A stretch of 58,632 nucleotides of DNA from Desulfosporosinus acididurans (GTDB taxonomy: Bacteria; Bacillota; Desulfitobacteriia; Desulfitobacteriales; Desulfitobacteriaceae), in contig NZ_LDZY01000019.1 of assembly GCF_001029285.1 (NCBI RefSeq), forward strand, positions 1 to 58,632. The letters are read 5' to 3'. A program made the position numbers and the translations under genes. The notes under the pieces were generated by a model. It saw only the letters and a program-made list of their open reading frames with translations. It was not told the DNA's origin and searched no databases. Below, one piece after another: positions 18,758 through 38,425 of the stretch. How positions within the stretch are numbered: position 1 is the first letter of the stretch; every line of letters starts with the position of its first letter.

Positions 18758-18810
18758 AAATTATTAAAGAGTGATTGATAACTCTTTCAATCACTCTTTA
18801 ATAATTTAAT
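18758..18810 (-). terminator. Terminator of the Mg2+ transport operon
   Basis: ATTATTAAAGAGTGATTGA pairs with TCAATCACTCTTTAATAAT around a 6-base loop, a long near-perfect hairpin downstream of the NRAMP-like gene. Confidence 0.8.
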
Positions 18811-18867
18811 TGATTTCTTTATCTTGCAAAGATTTAAGTTTTCTTTTTTCTAACGTATATAACACTT

Positions 18868-20112
18868 TTAAATAAAGGGACCAATCAAAAGGGCAAGCGT
18901 TAAACCGATTAAAATTATCGTAGTAGTCCATCCAACTATATTATGAAATAACTTGTTCGTATGCTCTCCCATGATCTCCTTGTTATTGATTAAAAGCATC
19001 ATACAAATTAGTACGACAGGCAGCAATACTCCGTTTAGAACCTGCGACCATAAACTTATCAATATAAGCGGCGCATTCGGTATAAGAATAATCCCCACAG
19101 CAATGATCAAGATCGCCGTAAATAATGTATAAAATTGAGGAGCTTCATTTAGTTTTTTATCAATACCTGCTTCAAAGCCAAATGCTTCACATACATAAAA
19201 TGCTGTGGCAATCGGAAGTATCGTAGCCGAAAAGACCGAAGCTATAAATAGACCGAAAGCGAATATTTGAGACGCAAACGTCCCGGCAAAGGGTTCCAAG
19301 GCCAATGCTGCATCTTTTGCCTCTTCTATTTTAACACCATTCACATGGAGAGTTGATGCACAGGCAACCACTATAAAGAAGGCAACAACTACTGTGGCAA
19401 TACTGCCAATAATTACGTCCCACATGGTAAATTTATAATCTTTAATTTCCAATCCTTTTTCTATTACGGCCGACTGCATGTAGAATTGCATCCATGGAGC
19501 TATCGTTGTCCCGATTAAGCCGATAACCATCGTAACATAATCGAAATTATATTCTATATCCGGGTGAATAATTGAGCTGCCAATTTCTCCCCAGTTCGGT
19601 TTTCCCATAATAGCCGATATGATGTAAGAAAGAAGGAACACACTGAAGATTAAAAATATCTTTTCAGCCATACGATAAGTGCCTTTGACAACCAGAAACC
19701 ATACAGCAATAGCCACAAGTGGTACCGCTATATATTTGCTGACATCGAAAACCTGCATACTACCCGCTACACCGGCGAACTCCGTCGTTGTATTTCCGAT
19801 GTCGGCAATGAGCAGACCAATAAAGATAAAAAATGTAATTTTCACCCCGGCGTTTTCCCTAATTAAATCAGCTAGTCCTTTTCCTGTGACCATACCCATT
19901 CTAGCGTTCATTTCCTGTACAACGACAAGGGCAACGAAGGCAGGAATCAATGTCCATAAAAGACTATATCCGTAGTGCGCTCCGGCCACCGAATACGTTG
20001 TAATCCCGCCGGCATCGTTATCAACACTCCCCGTGATAATACCCGGACCTAATACTGCCAAAAATAAAACCAGATTTCTTAATAAGGATGATTTCTTAGC
20101 TTGCGTCATCAT
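18868..20112 (-). CDS. NRAMP-fold divalent cation transporter, probable Mg2+ type (NrMT)
   Basis: This 414-aa protein has about 11 transmembrane helices. In helix 1 the canonical metal-binding DPGN of Mn/Fe NRAMPs is DNDA (LGPGIITGSVDNDAGGITT). In helix 6 the canonical AxxMPH is TTIAPW, so the soft ligand Met is Ala and the conserved His is Trp. Loss of the Met is the known mark of the NRAMP-related Mg2+ transporters. The gene lies 15 bases after a cytosolic MgtE_N-CBS protein and behind an M-box riboswitch, both Mg2+-specific signals. I chose ATG 20112 after GGAGGTGAT; the longer frame would translate the ribosome site. Confidence 0.88.
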   Translation of the reverse strand: MMTQAKKSSLLRNLVLFLAVLGPGIITGSVDNDAGGITTYSVAGAHYGYSLLWTLIPAFVALVVVQEMNARMGMVTGKGLADLIRENAGVKITFFIFIGLLIADIGNTTTEFAGVAGSMQVFDVSKYIAVPLVAIAVWFLVVKGTYRMAEKIFLIFSVFLLSYIISAIMGKPNWGEIGSSIIHPDIEYNFDYVTMVIGLIGTTIAPWMQFYMQSAVIEKGLEIKDYKFTMWDVIIGSIATVVVAFFIVVACASTLHVNGVKIEEAKDAALALEPFAGTFASQIFAFGLFIASVFSATILPIATAFYVCEAFGFEAGIDKKLNEAPQFYTLFTAILIIAVGIILIPNAPLILISLWSQVLNGVLLPVVLICMMLLINNKEIMGEHTNKLFHNIVGWTTTIILIGLTLALLIGPFI

Positions 20113-20127
20113 GGTAATCACCTCCAT

Positions 20128-21369
20128 CTAATTTCTTCTTTTTCTTACGACCAAATCCATGACATCATTAATAATGACCATACCAAGCATCTTCATTTTT
20201 TTGTCAACAACTGGAACTGAAAGCAAATTATATTTCGTTATTATTTCATTCAGTTTTTCAATCTTTTCATAATCGTATACATAGATAACATCTGTATGCA
20301 TGATCTCCTTAAGTTTTACATCAAGTTCAGAAATAACAATATCCCTTAACGAGACTATCGCGATAAGTTTTTCATGATCATCAACAATATACAGATAATA
20401 AACCGTATCTGGTTCAGGTTTTAAGTGTCTTAACTCCCTTAACGTTTCGTTGACTGTCATGCTCTGATTAAGAGAAATATAATCTGTAGTCATTAAACTT
20501 CCTACCGTGTCATCCGGGTATTCCATCAATTCCCGAACTTCAAGAGATACTTCTTGTTCCATCTCATTTAACAGTTTCTCGGCATCTTCCTCTTCCATCT
20601 CATCAAGAATATCTGCGACTTCATCTGCCGGCATTTTCTCAAGAACGTCGGCTGCCTTTTCTACCGAAAGGTTTGCCAAGACGTGTAATTGCGCATCAGT
20701 TTCAAGTTCTTCCAGTACATCGGCAGCTTTCTCTTCGTCGAGAGAGTTAAAAATGGCAACCTGAGTATGCCTGTCATAATCTTCAATAATATCTGCTAGA
20801 TCAGAGGGATGAAGGGTTAAAAGTTTATCATGTTCTTTGGAAAGCGTTAGTCCTACATGGATATAATCTACAGAAGCCACATCATCCCATAAAATCATTT
20901 TACTTGGTACGCGAATCCCAAAAGGCTTCAAAATCTTCTTTATCGGTTTAGCAATTCCAATACGTCTCAAAAGGCCATCGAAACCTACATCAACCGCAAT
21001 CGTAAATATACCGCTTTTAAGAATTGCTAACCTTAAATCATTCACCCTTACAACTTTCCGACCATCCATATCGACGATTTGCTTGTCTAAAACATGCTTT
21101 TTCAGGAACATGGTATTCTCTTTGGCAACTGTCATTTCTTGTAACTGATCACACCGAATAATGTACTGACCCTTATCTTTAAAAATTGATATCCCTGAAA
21201 AGTCAATAACTCTAATTTCTCTCTCAAGCTTAACTTTAGCCGCAATCACTTTTGGACTAATCTCGTTTACATCAACAATTAAATCTAATAGTTTGCCTAT
21301 TGTTTTATGATTACTCGAAATAACTTTATTACCTAATACCCGGCTAAGATAAAACGTTGATACTGACAC
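20128..21369 (-). CDS. Soluble PRC-barrel / MgtE N-domain / CBS-pair protein
   Basis: This 413-aa protein has no membrane segment. Residues about 1-175 form two PRC-barrel-like units (LGNKVISSNHKTIGKLLDLI; DMDGRKVVRVNDLRLA). Residues about 185-285 are the MgtE N superhelix (LHPSDLADIIEDYDRHTQ, EKAADVLEKMPADEVADIL). Two CBS motifs follow (VGSLMTTDYISLNQSMTV; IMHTDVIYVYDYEKIEKL). In MgtE channels this module senses cytosolic Mg2+ and closes the pore; here the pore is absent and the next gene is an NRAMP transporter. I infer that it is a separate regulatory subunit. The GTG start at 21369 follows GGAGGG; the upstream ATG overlaps that site. Confidence 0.88.
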   Translation of the reverse strand: MSVSTFYLSRVLGNKVISSNHKTIGKLLDLIVDVNEISPKVIAAKVKLEREIRVIDFSGISIFKDKGQYIIRCDQLQEMTVAKENTMFLKKHVLDKQIVDMDGRKVVRVNDLRLAILKSGIFTIAVDVGFDGLLRRIGIAKPIKKILKPFGIRVPSKMILWDDVASVDYIHVGLTLSKEHDKLLTLHPSDLADIIEDYDRHTQVAIFNSLDEEKAADVLEELETDAQLHVLANLSVEKAADVLEKMPADEVADILDEMEEEDAEKLLNEMEQEVSLEVRELMEYPDDTVGSLMTTDYISLNQSMTVNETLRELRHLKPEPDTVYYLYIVDDHEKLIAIVSLRDIVISELDVKLKEIMHTDVIYVYDYEKIEKLNEIITKYNLLSVPVVDKKMKMLGMVIINDVMDLVVRKRRN

Positions 21370-21567
21370 AATAAATCCCTCCATTTCTTATATGGAGGGA
21401 TTTTTGACAATAATATATTAGACTTAGATATATAAATAAATCAAAGTCAAAATTCCCCCCACGCTATATTCAAATAAAAGCATCTACCATCAGGGTCTGT
21501 GTCCATCATGAACAACCTCCATGTTTCAGACTATAAAGTTGCAATGCAACTGTTACAACTTGCGAAA

Positions 21568-21612
21568 AATAATAAAACCTTCGCCAGAACTTGAACAACA
21601 TGGCGAAGGCAT
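21568..21612 (-). terminator. Expression-platform terminator of the M-box
   Basis: On the minus strand CCTTCGCC pairs with GGCGAAGG, followed by TTTTATTATTTTT. The loop contains GTTCAAGTT, complementary to AACTTGAAC at the 3' edge of the aptamer (about 21633-21642). Aptamer closing and antiterminator formation are therefore mutually exclusive. Confidence 0.85.
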
Positions 21613-21627
21613 AATAATCCCTTGTTA

Positions 21628-21795
21628 AATCCCGTTCAAGTTTTAGCTCTGCAAGGCAGTGAAATTACATTAGGTTATGCCTTGTTTTTCGACATATCCT
21701 GTTGACCTTCTCGAGTTGTCTCCAACTCTCCGCGGCAGCAATCCATATCCTTGCGGTAGCCTCACCTACCGAGTAATTATTGACTTCGCGTTTAT
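21628..21795 (-). ncRNA. M-box (ykoK) magnesium riboswitch
   Basis: Read on the minus strand, the conserved blocks appear in the right order and spacing: GGTAGGTGAGGCTACC, TTGCTGCCGCGG, GGTCAACAGGATATGTCG and AGAGCTAAAACTTGAAC. These match the M-box aptamer, which folds with Mg2+ and causes early termination. The terminator follows. The riboswitch lies about 260 bases upstream of the MgtE_N-CBS gene. Repression at high Mg2+ is the expected mode. Confidence 0.92.
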
Positions 21796-21799
21796 TATA

Positions 21800-22234
21800 A
21801 TACTTTAGTCGCCTAATTACAAGCACACGAACTCAGTTTTTGTGCAATTTGTTTTGTTTTAGTGCATAAACCTTAAATATCTGTACTATGCTCAATGGAT
21901 TCTTATTTTAAACCAGATATAGCCTTATTTCAAGGAGATATTGTATGAGATAATTGCCAACGAGATGGATTGCACCTCATAAATTAACTTATTACTTAAG
22001 AATAATTTCATTTATACATGACAATAATTATTAACATCCACAGTAGTCATTTTTATGAAATCAGATATAAAATACTAGCTCATCATTGAAAATTTAGCAC
22101 AAGAAAACATATCGTCCCGGATAAAGTATTTCTTGAATTTTAAGAGATTTCTTATGGACAAATAGATTACTTTGGTTTATTATTTATTCATTGTTTTTAT
22201 TCATACTATTTTTATCGGAATAGGTGGTATACTT
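21800..22234. other. Divergent intergenic region
   Basis: This region holds the promoters for the M-box transcript (minus) and the nitrite/sulfite reductase gene (plus). It is very AT-rich. I see no further gene; AAGGAGATATTGTATG at 21930-21946 starts only a two-codon ORF. Confidence 0.5.
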
Positions 22235-25743: not shown

Positions 25744-28700
25744 TTATATTCGTATGATCTCAACTTTAGTATCGAGCGAAGCGACACCTCCGCCAATCGG
25801 ATCCAGCAATGAGGTATTTTTCAGTTTGGGATCAATCATGAGCAAGCTGTTTCCTGAGAACCCGGTATCCCGCCCAAGGGCATAGCCCGTTTTCTGCTCA
25901 AAAGGCTTTTTGACGGTAAACGGTGTATGGTTATACGGTTTTAGCACAGGAGTTGATTTTCCGTCAATGATGACCGGATGCCCCCCATAAGCAGTATTAC
26001 CATAGTTGTAGGGTGTTCCCACCGTTCCCGGGCGAATTCCGCCCGTAACCATGATGTGGCCGACAACCTCAATAAGTCCTGATTTGATCTTGACTTGATC
26101 ACCGTCCTGCAACCCGCGCTTTTTAGCATCGATCGGATTAATCCAAAGAAAATTCTCAGGTTTAATCTCCCTTAACCAAACATCGCTGATCGTACGGTGA
26201 GTAGCAATATTCCTCGCCTTCCAGTTAAGAAAGTGAAGCGGCTCGCTTTGTTTGACTTCTTGTACATCATACGTACGAATGCTTTCGTATTTGGGCAAGC
26301 CATCAAAATATTGTCCTGTATAGGAATGTTTCGCTCCCGCCGTTTTTTCGTCATAGAATATAGTTTGCCCGTTAAGACGGTATTTGAGGAGAGGCCCCTC
26401 ATATTCCGCACCTGGATCTTCAAAACGTCCGCCTCGGTTAAGAACCGTTACAACCTTGGCCCACTCTTCCGGTTTAACCGCACTGCGCCAGCTTTTTTCG
26501 TCAAAGAATTGGCCTAAAGCCGCCTTTCGGGCTTCGCTGAAGACCTGAAGTTCTTCGGTTGATGCATCAGGAACCGGAGTTTCAGCAAAAGCAATATTGG
26601 CAATCATTTTTAGGTAAAAGTCCTCAACCCGGTCTAACGGACTCCCATCCGCAAAGGCCTTCGCTCCGGCACCCGGTAAGCCTAGTTTCTTTAAGATCTC
26701 GATGAAAACATCTTGCGTATCGCGAGGCTCTGGATAAACGCGGGTCACAGGCTGCATGAAGTGTGTCACCTTCAAGGGGAAACTGGGAGTAATTGTTTTC
26801 CGGCCCCAGCGTTCCAGATAACTCAGGTCCGGTAAGACAAAATCCGCACAGGAGGTGCTTTCACTCAAAACGATATCAGAAGAAACCAGCAGAGGAATTT
26901 TTTGAGGATTAATTAAGGTCTGACGGGTCATATCCCCTGCCGGGAAGGTGAGTAATGGGTTGACCCGGTAAATGAAAAGGGCTTTCAAGGAATACGGATA
27001 TCCTTCGGCAGCGCTTGGAATCACTTCTTCCGAAGAATTTCCGGCAATCGGGAACCAGGGACGTTTGGCAGGATAACCGTCTCGTTTAAAGAGACTGCTC
27101 TTTTCGTAGGCGGAGGAGCGGCGGCTGATCGGAATCCCCCAGGCCTGATGAGCATTCGGGACCTTTTTCAGATCATAGCGGCCTGTCATATCCTTATGCC
27201 GTGCTCCACCGGTCAGGCTTCCCCCCTGCCAATCATGATTGCCGATTAAATGATTCAGCATGTTCACAGCCCGTGCCGTATAATATCCGTTGGCGTGCAT
27301 GGCAATGCCGCGATAAGCCATAATGGCGGCTTTCTTGCCGTGAGACGTAAATTCCTGGGCAAGTTCGATAATTTGTTCCTTCGTAATTCCTGCGATGTTC
27401 GCATATTCGTCTAAGGTTTGTTCCATGACCCGTTCTTTATAAAGAGTAAACGCCGATTTCACATGAATGCCATTAACTACACTATCGACTTCCAGATCGC
27501 CCTCAGCGGCCTGACTATGAGCAGCTGGAGTCCCATTTTGCAAAACTACAAATTCGGTATCATCCCCGATTCCCAGATCTTTTGCCCTTAGCTTCGGCTT
27601 TTTTTCATCCGAAACATTGATTAAATAGGTGGCATCGCTCCAGGTTGGTTCTCCATCTGCCTGGGCCGCTTTAAGGTTTGGGTTGCGCAAGTATCGCTCG
27701 TCATAGCGTTTGTTCTCAACAATCCAACGGCCTATGCCCAAGGCCAAGGCAGCATCTGTCCCTGCGAGAATCGGCACCCAGAGATCGGCTTTTTCAGCGG
27801 TCCGGCTCATCCGGGTATCAATAACAGCCATCTTCATACCCCGGGCTAAGGCATTCGTCAACATCGGCGCCAAAAACGTAGGACCCCGATTGGCGACCAT
27901 GGGGTTTGTTCCCCAAACTAACAGGAATTCCGTGGCGTTCAGGTCGGCATAGAGTCTCTTTTTCGGTTGCTGAGTTATGAAGGAGTGAACTGTTCCAATG
28001 ACCCCGTTGGCACCGCAGGCCCCGCCGTGATCATCAAAGTTGATACTGCCGAAGCCTTGAAACCAGACGCGGTCGCGCATAAAATCTCGGCGGTCTCCTC
28101 CAAGGCAGGCAATTTGATTTGACTTCGGACCAAAATCAGGGTGTTGAGTGTCAATGAGCACATCTTTGTATTTTCTATCAAACTCTTGAGCCGTCATTTG
28201 TCCTTTTTTAACGAGATCCCAATCGCCCATCACCTTTGCTTTGCCGACATAGGCCCAAAGGGATTTGAGACCCGGTGTTCCCAAATCGGAACTGCCATTA
28301 ATAATTTCTTGAATCGCCTGCTCCCAGGTGATGCTTTTCCACTCTCCGCTTCCTCTGGGTCCGACCCGTTTAAGAGGTGTACGGACGCGTAAAGCGTCAT
28401 AAGCGGTCTGTATCCCGGCTTGTCCTTTGAGGCAGGTTCTTCCGCCCCGAAACCCGCGGCCCTCCACGGCCAAGGTGGGCTTACCCTTCGCTGCGCTTAA
28501 AGCCGAAGTTCCATAAGGAACCGGACCAAACGGAATCGTCGTCAACGGGCTGTAGGGATTTCCCGCAATTTTTCGGACTAAGCTTGAATAGGGCCTTCCT
28601 TTTTCCCCTTCCTCAATGCAAGTCTTAATTGTACAGTGGGAATTGCACTGTTCGCAGGTAGTATAGATCACATTAGCCGCTGTGTAATCTTCATCTTGGC

Positions 28701-28857
28701 CGCCTACGCCGTGAGGGGTATCGAGCCAAGCATTATTCATCAATTGTCGCAGGGGATCTCCGAGGAACGGTCCGCCAAAAGCCACGGCACCTAAAACTCC
28801 CGAAGCTTTTAGAAAGTTCCGCCGGTTCAACTTCATCGAATCCTTTTTCTCTGCCAT
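25744..28857 (-). CDS. Molybdopterin oxidoreductase catalytic subunit, TtrA/SrdA-like, TAT-exported
   Basis: This 1037-aa protein belongs to the DMSO reductase family. The twin-arginine signal is NRRNFLKASGVLGAVAFGG (residues about 11-29). The [4Fe-4S] site is CEQCNSHC...C with the last Cys in GGRTCLKGQAG. The likely Mo ligand is Cys in DHGGACGANG (about residue 280). Length and the B-C-A gene order match tetrathionate reductase (TtrA, about 1020 aa) and the Bacillus selenate reductase SrdA; polysulfide/thiosulfate and arsenate reductases are shorter. The substrate stays open: tetrathionate, selenate or a related oxyanion. It starts 3 bases after the NrfD-like gene. No TorD-like chaperone is nearby. 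Confidence 0.85.
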   Translation of the reverse strand: MAEKKDSMKLNRRNFLKASGVLGAVAFGGPFLGDPLRQLMNNAWLDTPHGVGGQDEDYTAANVIYTTCEQCNSHCTIKTCIEEGEKGRPYSSLVRKIAGNPYSPLTTIPFGPVPYGTSALSAAKGKPTLAVEGRGFRGGRTCLKGQAGIQTAYDALRVRTPLKRVGPRGSGEWKSITWEQAIQEIINGSSDLGTPGLKSLWAYVGKAKVMGDWDLVKKGQMTAQEFDRKYKDVLIDTQHPDFGPKSNQIACLGGDRRDFMRDRVWFQGFGSINFDDHGGACGANGVIGTVHSFITQQPKKRLYADLNATEFLLVWGTNPMVANRGPTFLAPMLTNALARGMKMAVIDTRMSRTAEKADLWVPILAGTDAALALGIGRWIVENKRYDERYLRNPNLKAAQADGEPTWSDATYLINVSDEKKPKLRAKDLGIGDDTEFVVLQNGTPAAHSQAAEGDLEVDSVVNGIHVKSAFTLYKERVMEQTLDEYANIAGITKEQIIELAQEFTSHGKKAAIMAYRGIAMHANGYYTARAVNMLNHLIGNHDWQGGSLTGGARHKDMTGRYDLKKVPNAHQAWGIPISRRSSAYEKSSLFKRDGYPAKRPWFPIAGNSSEEVIPSAAEGYPYSLKALFIYRVNPLLTFPAGDMTRQTLINPQKIPLLVSSDIVLSESTSCADFVLPDLSYLERWGRKTITPSFPLKVTHFMQPVTRVYPEPRDTQDVFIEILKKLGLPGAGAKAFADGSPLDRVEDFYLKMIANIAFAETPVPDASTEELQVFSEARKAALGQFFDEKSWRSAVKPEEWAKVVTVLNRGGRFEDPGAEYEGPLLKYRLNGQTIFYDEKTAGAKHSYTGQYFDGLPKYESIRTYDVQEVKQSEPLHFLNWKARNIATHRTISDVWLREIKPENFLWINPIDAKKRGLQDGDQVKIKSGLIEVVGHIMVTGGIRPGTVGTPYNYGNTAYGGHPVIIDGKSTPVLKPYNHTPFTVKKPFEQKTGYALGRDTGFSGNSLLMIDPKLKNTSLLDPIGGGVASLDTKVEIIRI

Positions 28858-28860
28858 GGA

Positions 28861-30183
28861 TTATTCCACTCCTTTCTCAAGACCCGCGTGCCCAAAATCT
28901 TGACCTGCATCGAATGCACCCAAGCCATCGGCAGCTTCTTGGGTCTTTGCCTCGTATTGATCAATGGGCAGGATTTTCTCGCCCAAAGTATAAATAATTA
29001 TTCCCATCGCAATCAGTCCCAAGCTCGTTACCCATTCGGAAAGGGTCGGGTAATAATTCCCTGGCGGGAGTCCCTTCAAGACAGGGACGATAAAGGGAGG
29101 GACAATCATATTGAAGCGAACGCCAACGACTCCAACAATTGTCATGATCGCTGCGGCCAAAACCCACTTTACGGATTGGCGTGTTTTTTTGTAAAAGACA
29201 AGAATCAATGGAATCACCATGGCAAGTCCCATTTGAAAAACCCAAAAGGACCACCAGAATGGGCTGGCTGTCATCGTTTTAATCGTTAGGAGTTCTTCAC
29301 TTTTAAGTCCGTAAAGGCCAATAAGGAATTCATACCACTCCAGTCCGAGCTCAATGGCCAGGAACATTCCCATCAAGGTTCCCAGGGACTGAACCATGGT
29401 CCGGTCATGAGGACGATGAAATACCCAATTCTTAATAACATAGAGGGCAATGGAGAGAGCTGTTCCGGAAACGAGAGCCGAAAGAATAAAGATGATGGGG
29501 AAAAGTCCACTGTTTAAAAAAGGACGTGCTTTGTCTACGGCAAAAATCGAACCCGTTCCTCCATGGACACCAAAGATTGCGAGGGGTATTCCCACACTTC
29601 CTAAAATTTTAAGCAGACGCTTGTCCCAGGCAAGTGATTCTTCTGAAACATCCGTATAGCCAAAAGTCAGGAACTTGGAAAGTTTGGCAAAACGCCCTTG
29701 CTCTTCAGACCGTTTGACCAGATCAGGGCGCATTGAATAATAGAGCTCGGTAACTAAGAGCAAGATATAAAGTATATAGAAGTGGATTTCCCACGCCATC
29801 GTACTCATGATGTTCCAATTGAGCAAAGAATTAAAGACATGGTCAGGACGGCCGATATCCAAGAAAATAAAGGCGATGGCGGTAATCATACTGGCAATCG
29901 CCGATAAAAGAGCTGAACGCCCAATTTCTTCATATTGCTTCATGCCAAAGGCAAAGATCAACGTCGAAAGGAGAAACGAGCCGGCACTCATGCCGATAAA
30001 ATAAATATAAAAAGCAACCCAGGCTCCCCAGGGAACAGTGTTCGTCAAGTTCGTTGAGCTCATTCCCTCCAATAAATACCCTTTTACAAGAGAAATCATC
30101 CCGACAACAAAGATAATTCCTAAGACAGTCCACCACTCCCGCTCGATACGATGAAGCCTCGAACCGGCGCTTGTCGTTTGCAT
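28861..30183 (-). CDS. NrfD-like quinol-interacting membrane subunit
   Basis: This 440-aa protein has about nine or ten transmembrane helices and no haem-binding pattern, as in the NrfD/PsrC/TtrC family that passes electrons from menaquinol to the Fe-S subunit. Typical stretches are NTVPWGAWVAFYIYFIGMSA and FLDIGRPDHVFNSLLNWN. I chose ATG 30183 (GTGGGG upstream); a TTG at 30216 is possible. It sits between the Fe-S and catalytic subunit genes, the same order as ttrBCA and srdBCA. Confidence 0.88.
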   Translation of the reverse strand: MQTTSAGSRLHRIEREWWTVLGIIFVVGMISLVKGYLLEGMSSTNLTNTVPWGAWVAFYIYFIGMSAGSFLLSTLIFAFGMKQYEEIGRSALLSAIASMITAIAFIFLDIGRPDHVFNSLLNWNIMSTMAWEIHFYILYILLLVTELYYSMRPDLVKRSEEQGRFAKLSKFLTFGYTDVSEESLAWDKRLLKILGSVGIPLAIFGVHGGTGSIFAVDKARPFLNSGLFPIIFILSALVSGTALSIALYVIKNWVFHRPHDRTMVQSLGTLMGMFLAIELGLEWYEFLIGLYGLKSEELLTIKTMTASPFWWSFWVFQMGLAMVIPLILVFYKKTRQSVKWVLAAAIMTIVGVVGVRFNMIVPPFIVPVLKGLPPGNYYPTLSEWVTSLGLIAMGIIIYTLGEKILPIDQYEAKTQEAADGLGAFDAGQDFGHAGLEKGVE

Positions 30184-30219
30184 ATCTATCCCCACTTTCT
30201 TGGTTTTCCTCTCCAAATG

Positions 30220-30888
30220 TCAGCGCAAGTAGATAACCCGCGGCTCAGTTCCTTGGTCCTCTTTCAAACGGTAAGCCCTAGAACTGGCAGCTAATTTGGA
30301 AACGACGCTGTTCGGATCATTCAAGTCTCCAAAATATCGGGCATCCCCAATGCACGTTTCTACACATGCCGGTTCTTCACCCCGCTCCAAACGGTGGAAA
30401 CAAAAAGAACACTTGCGTACGACGCCTTCGGGAATCTTTCCATTTCTGCGGGGTCCGCGTTTTTTACCATATTCCGGAGCTTGAACATCATTGTAGCCTA
30501 ACATTTCCTGTTCATAACTTGCGCCGTCATCATAGGAACGGGCTCCGTAAGGACAGGCACTAATACAGTACCGACAGCCAATACACCGATCATAATCAAT
30601 GACAACAATCCCGTTGTCTGCTTTGTAAGAGGCCCTGACCGGACAAACCTGGACACAGGGCGCCTTATCACACTGCATGCAGGGGCGGGGAATATTAACC
30701 CGTTTTACATTAGGGAATATTCCGTCCTCCAGCTCCAACAGGACATTATAAGAAACCCCGGGTGGGGTACGATTCTCCGCCTTACACGAGACGGTACACG
30801 TATCACATCCGACACATTTTGTCAGATCAATGACCATCCCCCAGCGGGGCTGTTTTTTGGCGGTTTGAGCTGCATCTGAACTGCGCAT
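30220..30888 (-). CDS. Four-cluster ferredoxin-like electron-transfer subunit (TtrB/SrdB-like)
   Basis: This 222-aa protein has 16 Cys in four [4Fe-4S] motifs: CVGCDTCTVSCKAEN, CMQCDKAPCVQVCP, CIGCRYCISACPYGA and CSFCFHRLERG...CVETC. This is the DmsB/PsrB/TtrB pattern that links the quinol-oxidising membrane subunit to the Mo subunit. No TAT signal is visible; it may be carried out with the catalytic subunit. I chose ATG 30888 after AAGGAGGTACCCC, because the longer frame begins upstream of the predicted sigma54 transcription start. Confidence 0.9.
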   Translation of the reverse strand: MRSSDAAQTAKKQPRWGMVIDLTKCVGCDTCTVSCKAENRTPPGVSYNVLLELEDGIFPNVKRVNIPRPCMQCDKAPCVQVCPVRASYKADNGIVVIDYDRCIGCRYCISACPYGARSYDDGASYEQEMLGYNDVQAPEYGKKRGPRRNGKIPEGVVRKCSFCFHRLERGEEPACVETCIGDARYFGDLNDPNSVVSKLAASSRAYRLKEDQGTEPRVIYLR

Positions 30889-30949
30889 GGGGTACCTCCT
30901 TTTTTTGTACAATAGTTCTTTTCTTGTGCTCATAAGCGACATAATATAT

Positions 30950-30965
30950 TGCAATTACTGTACCA
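30950..30965 (-). promoter_or_regulatory. Sigma54 (-24/-12) promoter of the reductase operon
   Basis: On the minus strand the sequence is TGGTACAGTAATTGCA against the consensus TGGCACN5TTGCA. The GG and GC elements are separated by the required 10 bases. It lies about 60 bases upstream of the first structural gene and just after a terminator. The gene directly upstream encodes an NtrC-type activator. Confidence 0.8.
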
Positions 30966-38189: not shown

Positions 38190-38355
38190 CAGACTAACCC
38201 CTTTTCTTGTTCACTCACCCTTTGTCCCGGAAATTGCTCTCTGGTTTTATGTAAGCGTAACGGTGACAAGCCACCGAGAGGGACCCGCCGAAAGATTCGA
38301 TAACCCTCTTCCTCGTCGACCTTAAACGTAATAATAGATAAGGTCCTGGCGCTTA
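38190..38355 (-). ncRNA. glmS ribozyme
   Basis: On the minus strand the conserved blocks occur in order: AGCGCCAGGACC, GTCGACGAGG, GGGTTATCGAATCTTTCGGC, GGGTCCCTCTCGGTGGC, CACCGTTACG and GGGTGAGTGAACAAGAAAAG. They match the glmS ribozyme core and its pseudoknots. Cleavage would fall 5' of the G of GCGCC, between 38353 and 38352. Glucosamine-6-phosphate acts as the coenzyme, leading to decay of glmS mRNA. Confidence 0.96.
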
Positions 38356-38425
38356 AACGTCTCTGAAACAACGCAATTCAATTTTACCCTAACCCGCAAA
38401 CATAGAAATTCCTAACTGATCTTTT

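Follow-up and report, generated by a model that had tools for sequence, protein, structure and literature searches.

Shin et al. (2014; PMC4072509, which like the other papers is cited here from excerpts) described M-box-controlled NrmT operons in which most NrmT genes have an MgtE-like fragment encoded beside them, and speculated on a cytoplasmic feedback or chaperone role of this fragment. A locus of this kind lies on the minus strand of the stretch analyzed here, 58,632 nucleotides of Desulfosporosinus acididurans (contig NZ_LDZY01000019.1; the whole stretch is called the window), where a promoter-like match is followed by an M-box, a terminator, a gene for a soluble PRC-MgtE_N-CBS-CBS protein without the MgtE pore (MG) and a gene for a putative NRAMP-fold Mg2+ transporter (NRMT) (Table 1). 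The locus shares with the published operons (C. acetobutylicum Ca_c0685 and relatives) the combination of M-box, MgtE_N-type fragment and NrmT, with the fragment encoded beside the transporter; MG adjoins nrmT and is homologous to the cytoplasmic domain of MgtE, as described for the partners of Shin et al. Unlike in C. acetobutylicum, where the fragment is split in two genes (PMC4072509), MG is one gene in D. acididurans, and we found no functional study of its operon. Both this type of operon and the notion of feedback in trans are already published (PMC4072509); new here are the co-occurrence counts, the unlinked pairs, the scarcity of MgtE, the retention and loss of sensor residues, and the exchange of partners.

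Two other described systems offer points of comparison. EleNRMT of Eggerthella lenta (7qia) has the same DxxG-TxxA site as the window transporter, and in both a Trp replaces the first His of TM6; unlike the transporter described here, EleNRMT was studied alone, with no MgtE-like partner mentioned in the excerpts of PMC8806188. The cytosolic domain of T. thermophilus MgtE has the MgtE_N and CBS fold and the Mg4/Mg6/Mg7 acids in common with MG, but MG lacks the pore and the acids at E258/D259, has mostly Leu in place of Phe227, and is extended by a PRC part (one or two barrels) on the N-terminal side and by a basic tail at the C-terminal end. What the MgtE-like fragment does beside NRMT was still an open question in 2014, and no later paper testing the fragment was found in the open literature, subscription papers being mostly outside that search. 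We consider it reasonably probable (about 0.6) that MG is an in-trans Mg2+ sensor of NRMT in a two-layer Mg2+ uptake operon, most likely as a Mg2+-sensing inhibitory subunit of the transporter. Strict co-occurrence, partly retained sensor sites and repeated re-pairing make gating in trans an idea that can be tested directly. If it holds, a single sensor fold would control two unrelated transporters, acting in cis on MgtE and in trans on NRMT.

Co-occurrence and probable re-pairing of MG and NRMT

Among 398 genomes of the phylum, NRMT (called at E<1e-90) was found in 36, all of which also encode MG on the same contig and, by coordinates, at most 300 bases away. For these counts, 14 genomes whose NRAMP matches were all weaker (best E between 2.6e-41 and 1.6e-56) were treated as NRMT-less. 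Calls of MG required a near full-length match, except that a partial match (G278) and a split gene (G089) were also accepted, and at most four candidates per genome were scored in both searches. MG itself was detected in 38 genomes, namely the 36 with NRMT, G359 and G206, where the contig ends inside MG and leaves a loss of NRMT undecidable. The same pattern was observed in the family of D. acididurans (45 genomes, all candidates scored), with both genes in 32 genomes, NRMT alone in none, MG alone in two (G431 and G432, 83% and 78% complete) and neither in 11. MG and NRMT are unlinked in G398, G399 and G430 of this family, and their linkage in G435 was not decidable.

All of the 30 best NRMT loci of the phylum search (L003-L032) have an adjoining MG, which in L032 is split into two frames. 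Among the 80 best of the 588 loci found in named genomes, 74 contain MG; the others begin at or near a contig edge (L049, L082 and L098) or have no nearby MG (L100, L102 and L106), and in all three of the latter genomes MG is encoded elsewhere. An M-box directly precedes NRMT in L102 and L106, which are not independent of G398 and G399 because the MG coordinates are the same. The NRMT alignment was also matched by 56 of 247 genomes from a second phylum; MG is present in 29 of the 30 loci returned, and the contig of the remaining one (L225) ends just behind NRMT. The adjacency that the original prediction noted in the window is thus kept across several phyla. A set of 154 non-redundant MG–NRMT pairs, which are pairs by construction, comprises 148 co-directional pairs with MG first and six convergent yet adjoining ones (L219, L221, L222, L227, L229 and L110), so that the association does not depend on co-transcription. 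The gap between the longest frames of the co-directional pairs has a median of 8 bases; it is at most 30 bases in 131 pairs, and the frames overlap in 50. Nor is the M-box required for the pair, since MG–NRMT loci without it exist: Rfam places an M-box in 12 of 14 Bacillota loci tested (not in L087 and L088) and in one of 15 loci of other phyla (L107). Rfam counts alone were used here, as a broad M-box regular expression proved too strict (26/154 pairs) and missed the Rfam-positive loci L040, L066, L073, L084, L093, L095, L099, L107 and L111.

Some MG loci depart from the usual layout. The split MG of L032 (208-1507; the same operon as L153, G089) consists of two overlapping frames, PRC and MgtE_N-CBS, much like the division described in C. 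acetobutylicum. In L150 (5761-7432, G124) an M-box stands before a solo MG and the locus contains no NRMT; a further solo MG was found in L149. In D. acididurans itself, positions 6022-9408 of L033 (G000:C4) hold a second MG paralogue, 83% identical, and, 186 bases on, a gene for a 648-aa APC-superfamily permease, with no NRMT or M-box within the 16-kb stretch. A second conserved pairing of MG with the permease was considered and rejected, as it was seen in none of the other genomes of the 45 in the family.

Trees of 43 representative pairs suggest that MG and NRMT have exchanged partners. In the NRMT tree, the window-type transporters form a clade with three Omnitrophota rows (SH-aLRT 100), and a clade with the g134-like group (L019, L022, L025, L130 and L131) is rejected (delta lnL 170, p-AU 2e-90). 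The MG tree joins the window type with the g134-like group (support 100) and rejects its union with the Omnitrophota (delta lnL 641, p-AU 3e-47). These AU p values are nominal, because the clade groups were named after a first FastTree of all 154 pairs, the Omnitrophota rows of the MG tree are not united in a single clade, the branch of L060 is long and the composition of four rows is unusual. Likelihood differences this large nevertheless make at least two re-pairings likely, and the two proteins have remained paired. Over all 154 pairs, the correlation of MG and NRMT distances is 0.65.

Genomes with NRMT seldom encode the MgtE pore. It was found in 240 of the 398 phylum genomes, but in only four of the 36 with NRMT (G079, G171, G278 and G333) versus 236 of the 362 without (Fisher p 2e-10). 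Within families f31, f14 and f120, MgtE is missing from the NRMT genomes sampled and present in the sampled NRMT-less relatives, the single NRMT genome of f14 (G284) being only 61% complete; the one NRMT genome of family f40 has both. In the D. acididurans genome, 100% complete by estimate, we found no MgtE pore (PF01769, E<=1e-8; 10 of 17 candidates scored), no CorA (controls found in 14/14 and over the cut-off in 13/14) and no MgtA over the cut-off (best 326.6 versus 610.75, a value passed by just 2 of 14 controls). The MG–NRMT operon may therefore be the main known Mg2+ importer of D. acididurans, as far as the models used reach.

Sensor residues of MG and identity of the transporter

The domains of MG agree with its original description as a soluble PRC-MgtE_N-CBS protein. 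Pfam detects MgtE_N (E 8.5e-26), two CBS stretches, PRC (E 3.4e-5) and FliG-like matches, with no pore domain PF01769 among its matches, and the NCBIfam mgtE model scores 175.2 bits, under its cut-off of 232.75. In the AlphaFold model (mean pLDDT 86.1, pTM 0.53), two N-terminal beta-rich units (residues ~9-82 and 91-181) precede the helical MgtE_N and the CBS pair; Pfam recognizes PRC only in the first unit, and the second is probably a PRC-like barrel as well. A Foldseek search with this model is led by MgtE structures 2yvy and 2zy9 (E 4.5e-23 and 8.6e-23, rmsd 2.1-2.3 Å), and its 50 best rows cover MgtE and CBS proteins.

Residues were counted across 141 different MG sequences, of which four are solo or lack a demonstrated partner and none comes from the second phylum, against the reference residues of T. 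thermophilus MgtE (Mg sites from PMC5882242, ATP site from PMC5529423). The acids of Mg4/Mg6/Mg7 are retained, with D91 in 135, D95 in 139, D247 in 137 and an acidic residue at position 59 in 134 sequences. The position of D226 holds N in 62, G in 29 and D in 24, and that of D250 holds E in 67 and D in 30. At the ATP site, the adenine-stacking Phe227 is replaced by Leu in 129 sequences; among its other residues, Arg187 is kept in 131, Tyr170 in 93, Asp188 in 92 and Asn203 in 34. This pattern suggests a protein that could sense Mg2+ and be insensitive to ATP. Outside the MgtE-derived sites, D100, D105 and D116 of the PRC part are invariant (141/141), and the tail after D250 has a net charge of at least +2 in 126 sequences and of 0 or less in seven.

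The window transporter matches Pfam Nramp (E 4.4e-96), and its best solved relative is EleNRMT with 380.6 bits, MntH chains reaching at most 95.3 bits. By this score comparison, on which its placement was based, it falls with the NRMTs rather than with MntH; the NCBIfam MntH model PRK00701 gives 139.7 bits, under its cut-off of 430, and of the NCBIfam NRAMP models only the general Nramp_1 is passed (75.9 versus 50). The binding-site motif DxxG-TxxA/T, defined for NRMTs in PMC8806188, corresponds to D38, G41, T207 and A210, of which the first three are conserved in 154/154 NRMTs and A or T at 210 in 153/154. An altered MPH stretch had been proposed correctly, APW of TM6 facing it, but the replacement of DPGN by DNDA was off by two in register, and the residues facing DPGN are D38-A39-G40-G41 (DAGG). 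The loop between TM8 and TM9, which we take to be cytosolic from the general NRAMP topology, is longer in NRMTs than in the Deinococcus MntH row, with E314 and E319 in 154/154 and E328 in 139/154. That row (PDB chain 8e6i_A) is presumably a TM6 Met-to-Ala mutant, so that the A in it is not wild type. The Met in TM6 of MntH is taken from PMC8806188 and not from this row.

D. acididurans encodes a second, distinct NRAMP, 34% identical to the window NRMT. Within the genus, the window-type NRMT (93-100% identical) is present in three of 29 genomes, and most others hold one that is ~50% identical, a distribution that suggests horizontal replacement. A C-terminal NRMT fragment, 96% identical to that of the window, was observed in L036 (5811-6215, G124), 5' of an IS91-type-transposase-like open reading frame (ORF) and an MntH-like gene, both identified by eye.

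A proposed sensor in trans and its alternatives

The proposed mechanism takes the M-box logic, Mg2+ transport by NRMT and the gating of MgtE by its N/CBS module from the literature; the parts, their order, their conservation and the retained residues come from the present analysis. At high Mg2+, the M-box aptamer would fold and the terminator would halt transcription, and at low Mg2+ the 3' strand of the aptamer would pair with the terminator region, so that MG is made along with NRMT, an NRAMP-fold transporter that would bring Mg2+ into the cell. MG would be the cytosolic sensor of MgtE without the pore. Once Mg2+ is in the millimolar range, the N and CBS domains of MG could close together via the retained Mg4/Mg6/Mg7 acids, and closed MG would bind NRMT from the cytosol and slow uptake, a post-translational feedback. 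The original prediction likewise assigned MG a regulatory role in trans, which finds indirect support in co-occurrence even of unlinked genes, in the retained Mg2+ sites and in re-pairing, although the idea was not new (Shin et al. 2014).

Several observations weigh against this reading. The C. acetobutylicum NrmT complements without the fragment, which is hence not strictly required; the co-expressed A. capsulatum fragment gave no better Mg2+ rescue, although an inhibitor need not have helped; and the A. capsulatum NrmT looked like a Mn transporter, rescuing a Mn transport mutant (PMC4072509). For the direct interaction itself, we infer the binding of MG to NRMT, its inhibitory nature and the place of docking. 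Mg5 is altered in most of the 141 MGs, and the plug-helix acids of Mg2/Mg3 are gone (positions 258-263 being read without gaps after D250), with an acidic residue at 258 in one and at 259 in three sequences and R or K at 258 in 69. In MgtE, the plug helix contacts the pore; only 61 of the 141 MG tails reach its position 263, and the window MG ends at position 258, with N418. With the Mg2/Mg3 acids lost, the tails short and Mg5 altered, closure in the style of MgtE is not transferable whole. The Fisher test ignores kinship, eight of the 36 NRMT genomes coming from one family (f86), and the MgtE pore is also missing in 126 of the 362 NRMT-less genomes. Partner exchange argues against a finely tuned interface, solo MGs occur (L150, L149 and the D. 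acididurans L033), and no MG–NRMT fusion was found in the 154 pairs; the long NRMT frame of L118 overlaps MG in a different frame, and that of L220 does not contain MG.

The reading of MG as a sensor of NRMT in trans can be extended, tentatively and with low confidence, to a portable, Mg2+-sensing, ATP-insensitive inhibitory subunit that would dock on LeuT-fold transporters via its invariant PRC motif and basic C-tail (e.g., at the acidic TM8-9 loop conserved in NRMT), that could be exchanged between lineages and that perhaps serves an APC-type permease in D. acididurans. The paralogue beside this permease would also suit a general Mg2+ sensor of the cytosol that acts on further targets in place of or in addition to NRMT and is co-transcribed with it because both answer Mg2+ shortage, as would the solo MGs of L149 and, behind an M-box, L150, and the swaps of MG between NRMT lineages. 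Such a role seems unlikely to us, since MG is present in every NRMT genome (36/36 and 32/32), even unlinked, and is rarely found without NRMT (2/38 and 2/34, with G206, G431 and G432 incomplete or cut by a contig end), and since the APC neighbor recurs in no other of the 45 family genomes.

A positive partner, such as an assembly factor or metal chaperone needed for full NRMT activity, would account for the strict dependence of NRMT occurrence on MG and for the short or overlapping junctions with MG first, and a chaperone was named as an alternative by Shin et al. (2014; PMC4072509). We regard it as quite improbable, given that the C. acetobutylicum NrmT works without the fragment and that rescue was no better with the A. 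capsulatum fragment added (PMC4072509), and the retained regulatory Mg2+ sites suit a sensor better. That the window transporter is mainly a Mn2+ transporter and MG answers Mn2+, in line with the proposal of Shin et al. for A. capsulatum, where the NrmT beside an MgtE-like fragment rescued the Mn mutant, gains something from the Mn2+ uptake of EleNRMT (PMC8806188) but is very improbable in view of the M-box of the D. acididurans operon, absent from that of A. capsulatum (PMC4072509), the second, distinct NRAMP and the lack of any other known Mg2+ importer in the D. acididurans genome by the models used.

Leader RNA and other features of the window

Table 1. Coordinates of the operon features in the window
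Feature	Position	Strand	Remark
Sigma-70-like promoter TTGTAA-17-TATAAT	21794..21822	minus	directly 5' of aptamer; consensus match only, 10/12
M-box Mg2+ riboswitch aptamer	21622..21780	minus	Rfam RF00380, 103.2 bits, E 6.7e-22
Intrinsic terminator hairpin, then T-tract	21578..21609	minus	9 pairs, loop of 14, -13.3 kcal/mol
MG, soluble PRC-MgtE_N-CBS-CBS protein without MgtE pore	20128..21384	minus	start may be GTG at 21369
NRMT, putative NRAMP-fold Mg2+ transporter	18868..20112	minus	start ATG at 20112
Long inverted repeat 3' of NRMT, probable operon terminator	18759..18806	plus	20-pair stem on plus strand

The M-box aptamer and terminator recognized in the original prediction were both recovered, the score of the aptamer standing well above the RF00380 gathering score of 44 and the element lying 5' of a putative Mg2+ transporter operon with an expression platform. 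Nine bases of the terminator loop (21596-21588) are the exact reverse complement of the 3' strand of the aptamer at 21642-21634 (AACTTGAAC), and the competing antiterminator duplex is calculated at -19.9 kcal/mol, versus -13.3 kcal/mol for the terminator hairpin; this complementarity and the energy of the duplex fit a switch that turns transcription off at high Mg2+. The terminator does not appear in the consensus scan because that scan takes loops of 3-8 bases only. Promoter-type consensus matches are not in excess in the region (16 versus a shuffle mean of 15.4). A whole-genome search, in which 150 of 256 candidates were scored, found no second M-box in D. acididurans. Four of 23 M-boxes (those of the window, L037, L072 and L152) are weaker, with 97-115 bits versus 131-157 bits for the others, and those of the window, L037 and L152 have a shorter 3' part in common.

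The NRMT start codon is preceded by GGAGGTGA and lies 15 bases from the MG stop, the spacing given before, which is true if the ATG listed in Table 1 is the start. The inverted repeat behind NRMT is symmetrical and could terminate transcription on both strands. Elsewhere in the window, a glmS ribozyme (RF00234, 106.8 bits) at 38203-38364 lies 5' of a glmS-like gene (38055-36232, identified by eye). A large molybdopterin-type oxidoreductase, an NrfD-like membrane protein and an iron-sulfur protein were recognized by eye at 25744-30954, with response regulator and histidine kinase genes, also identified by eye, alongside this cluster.

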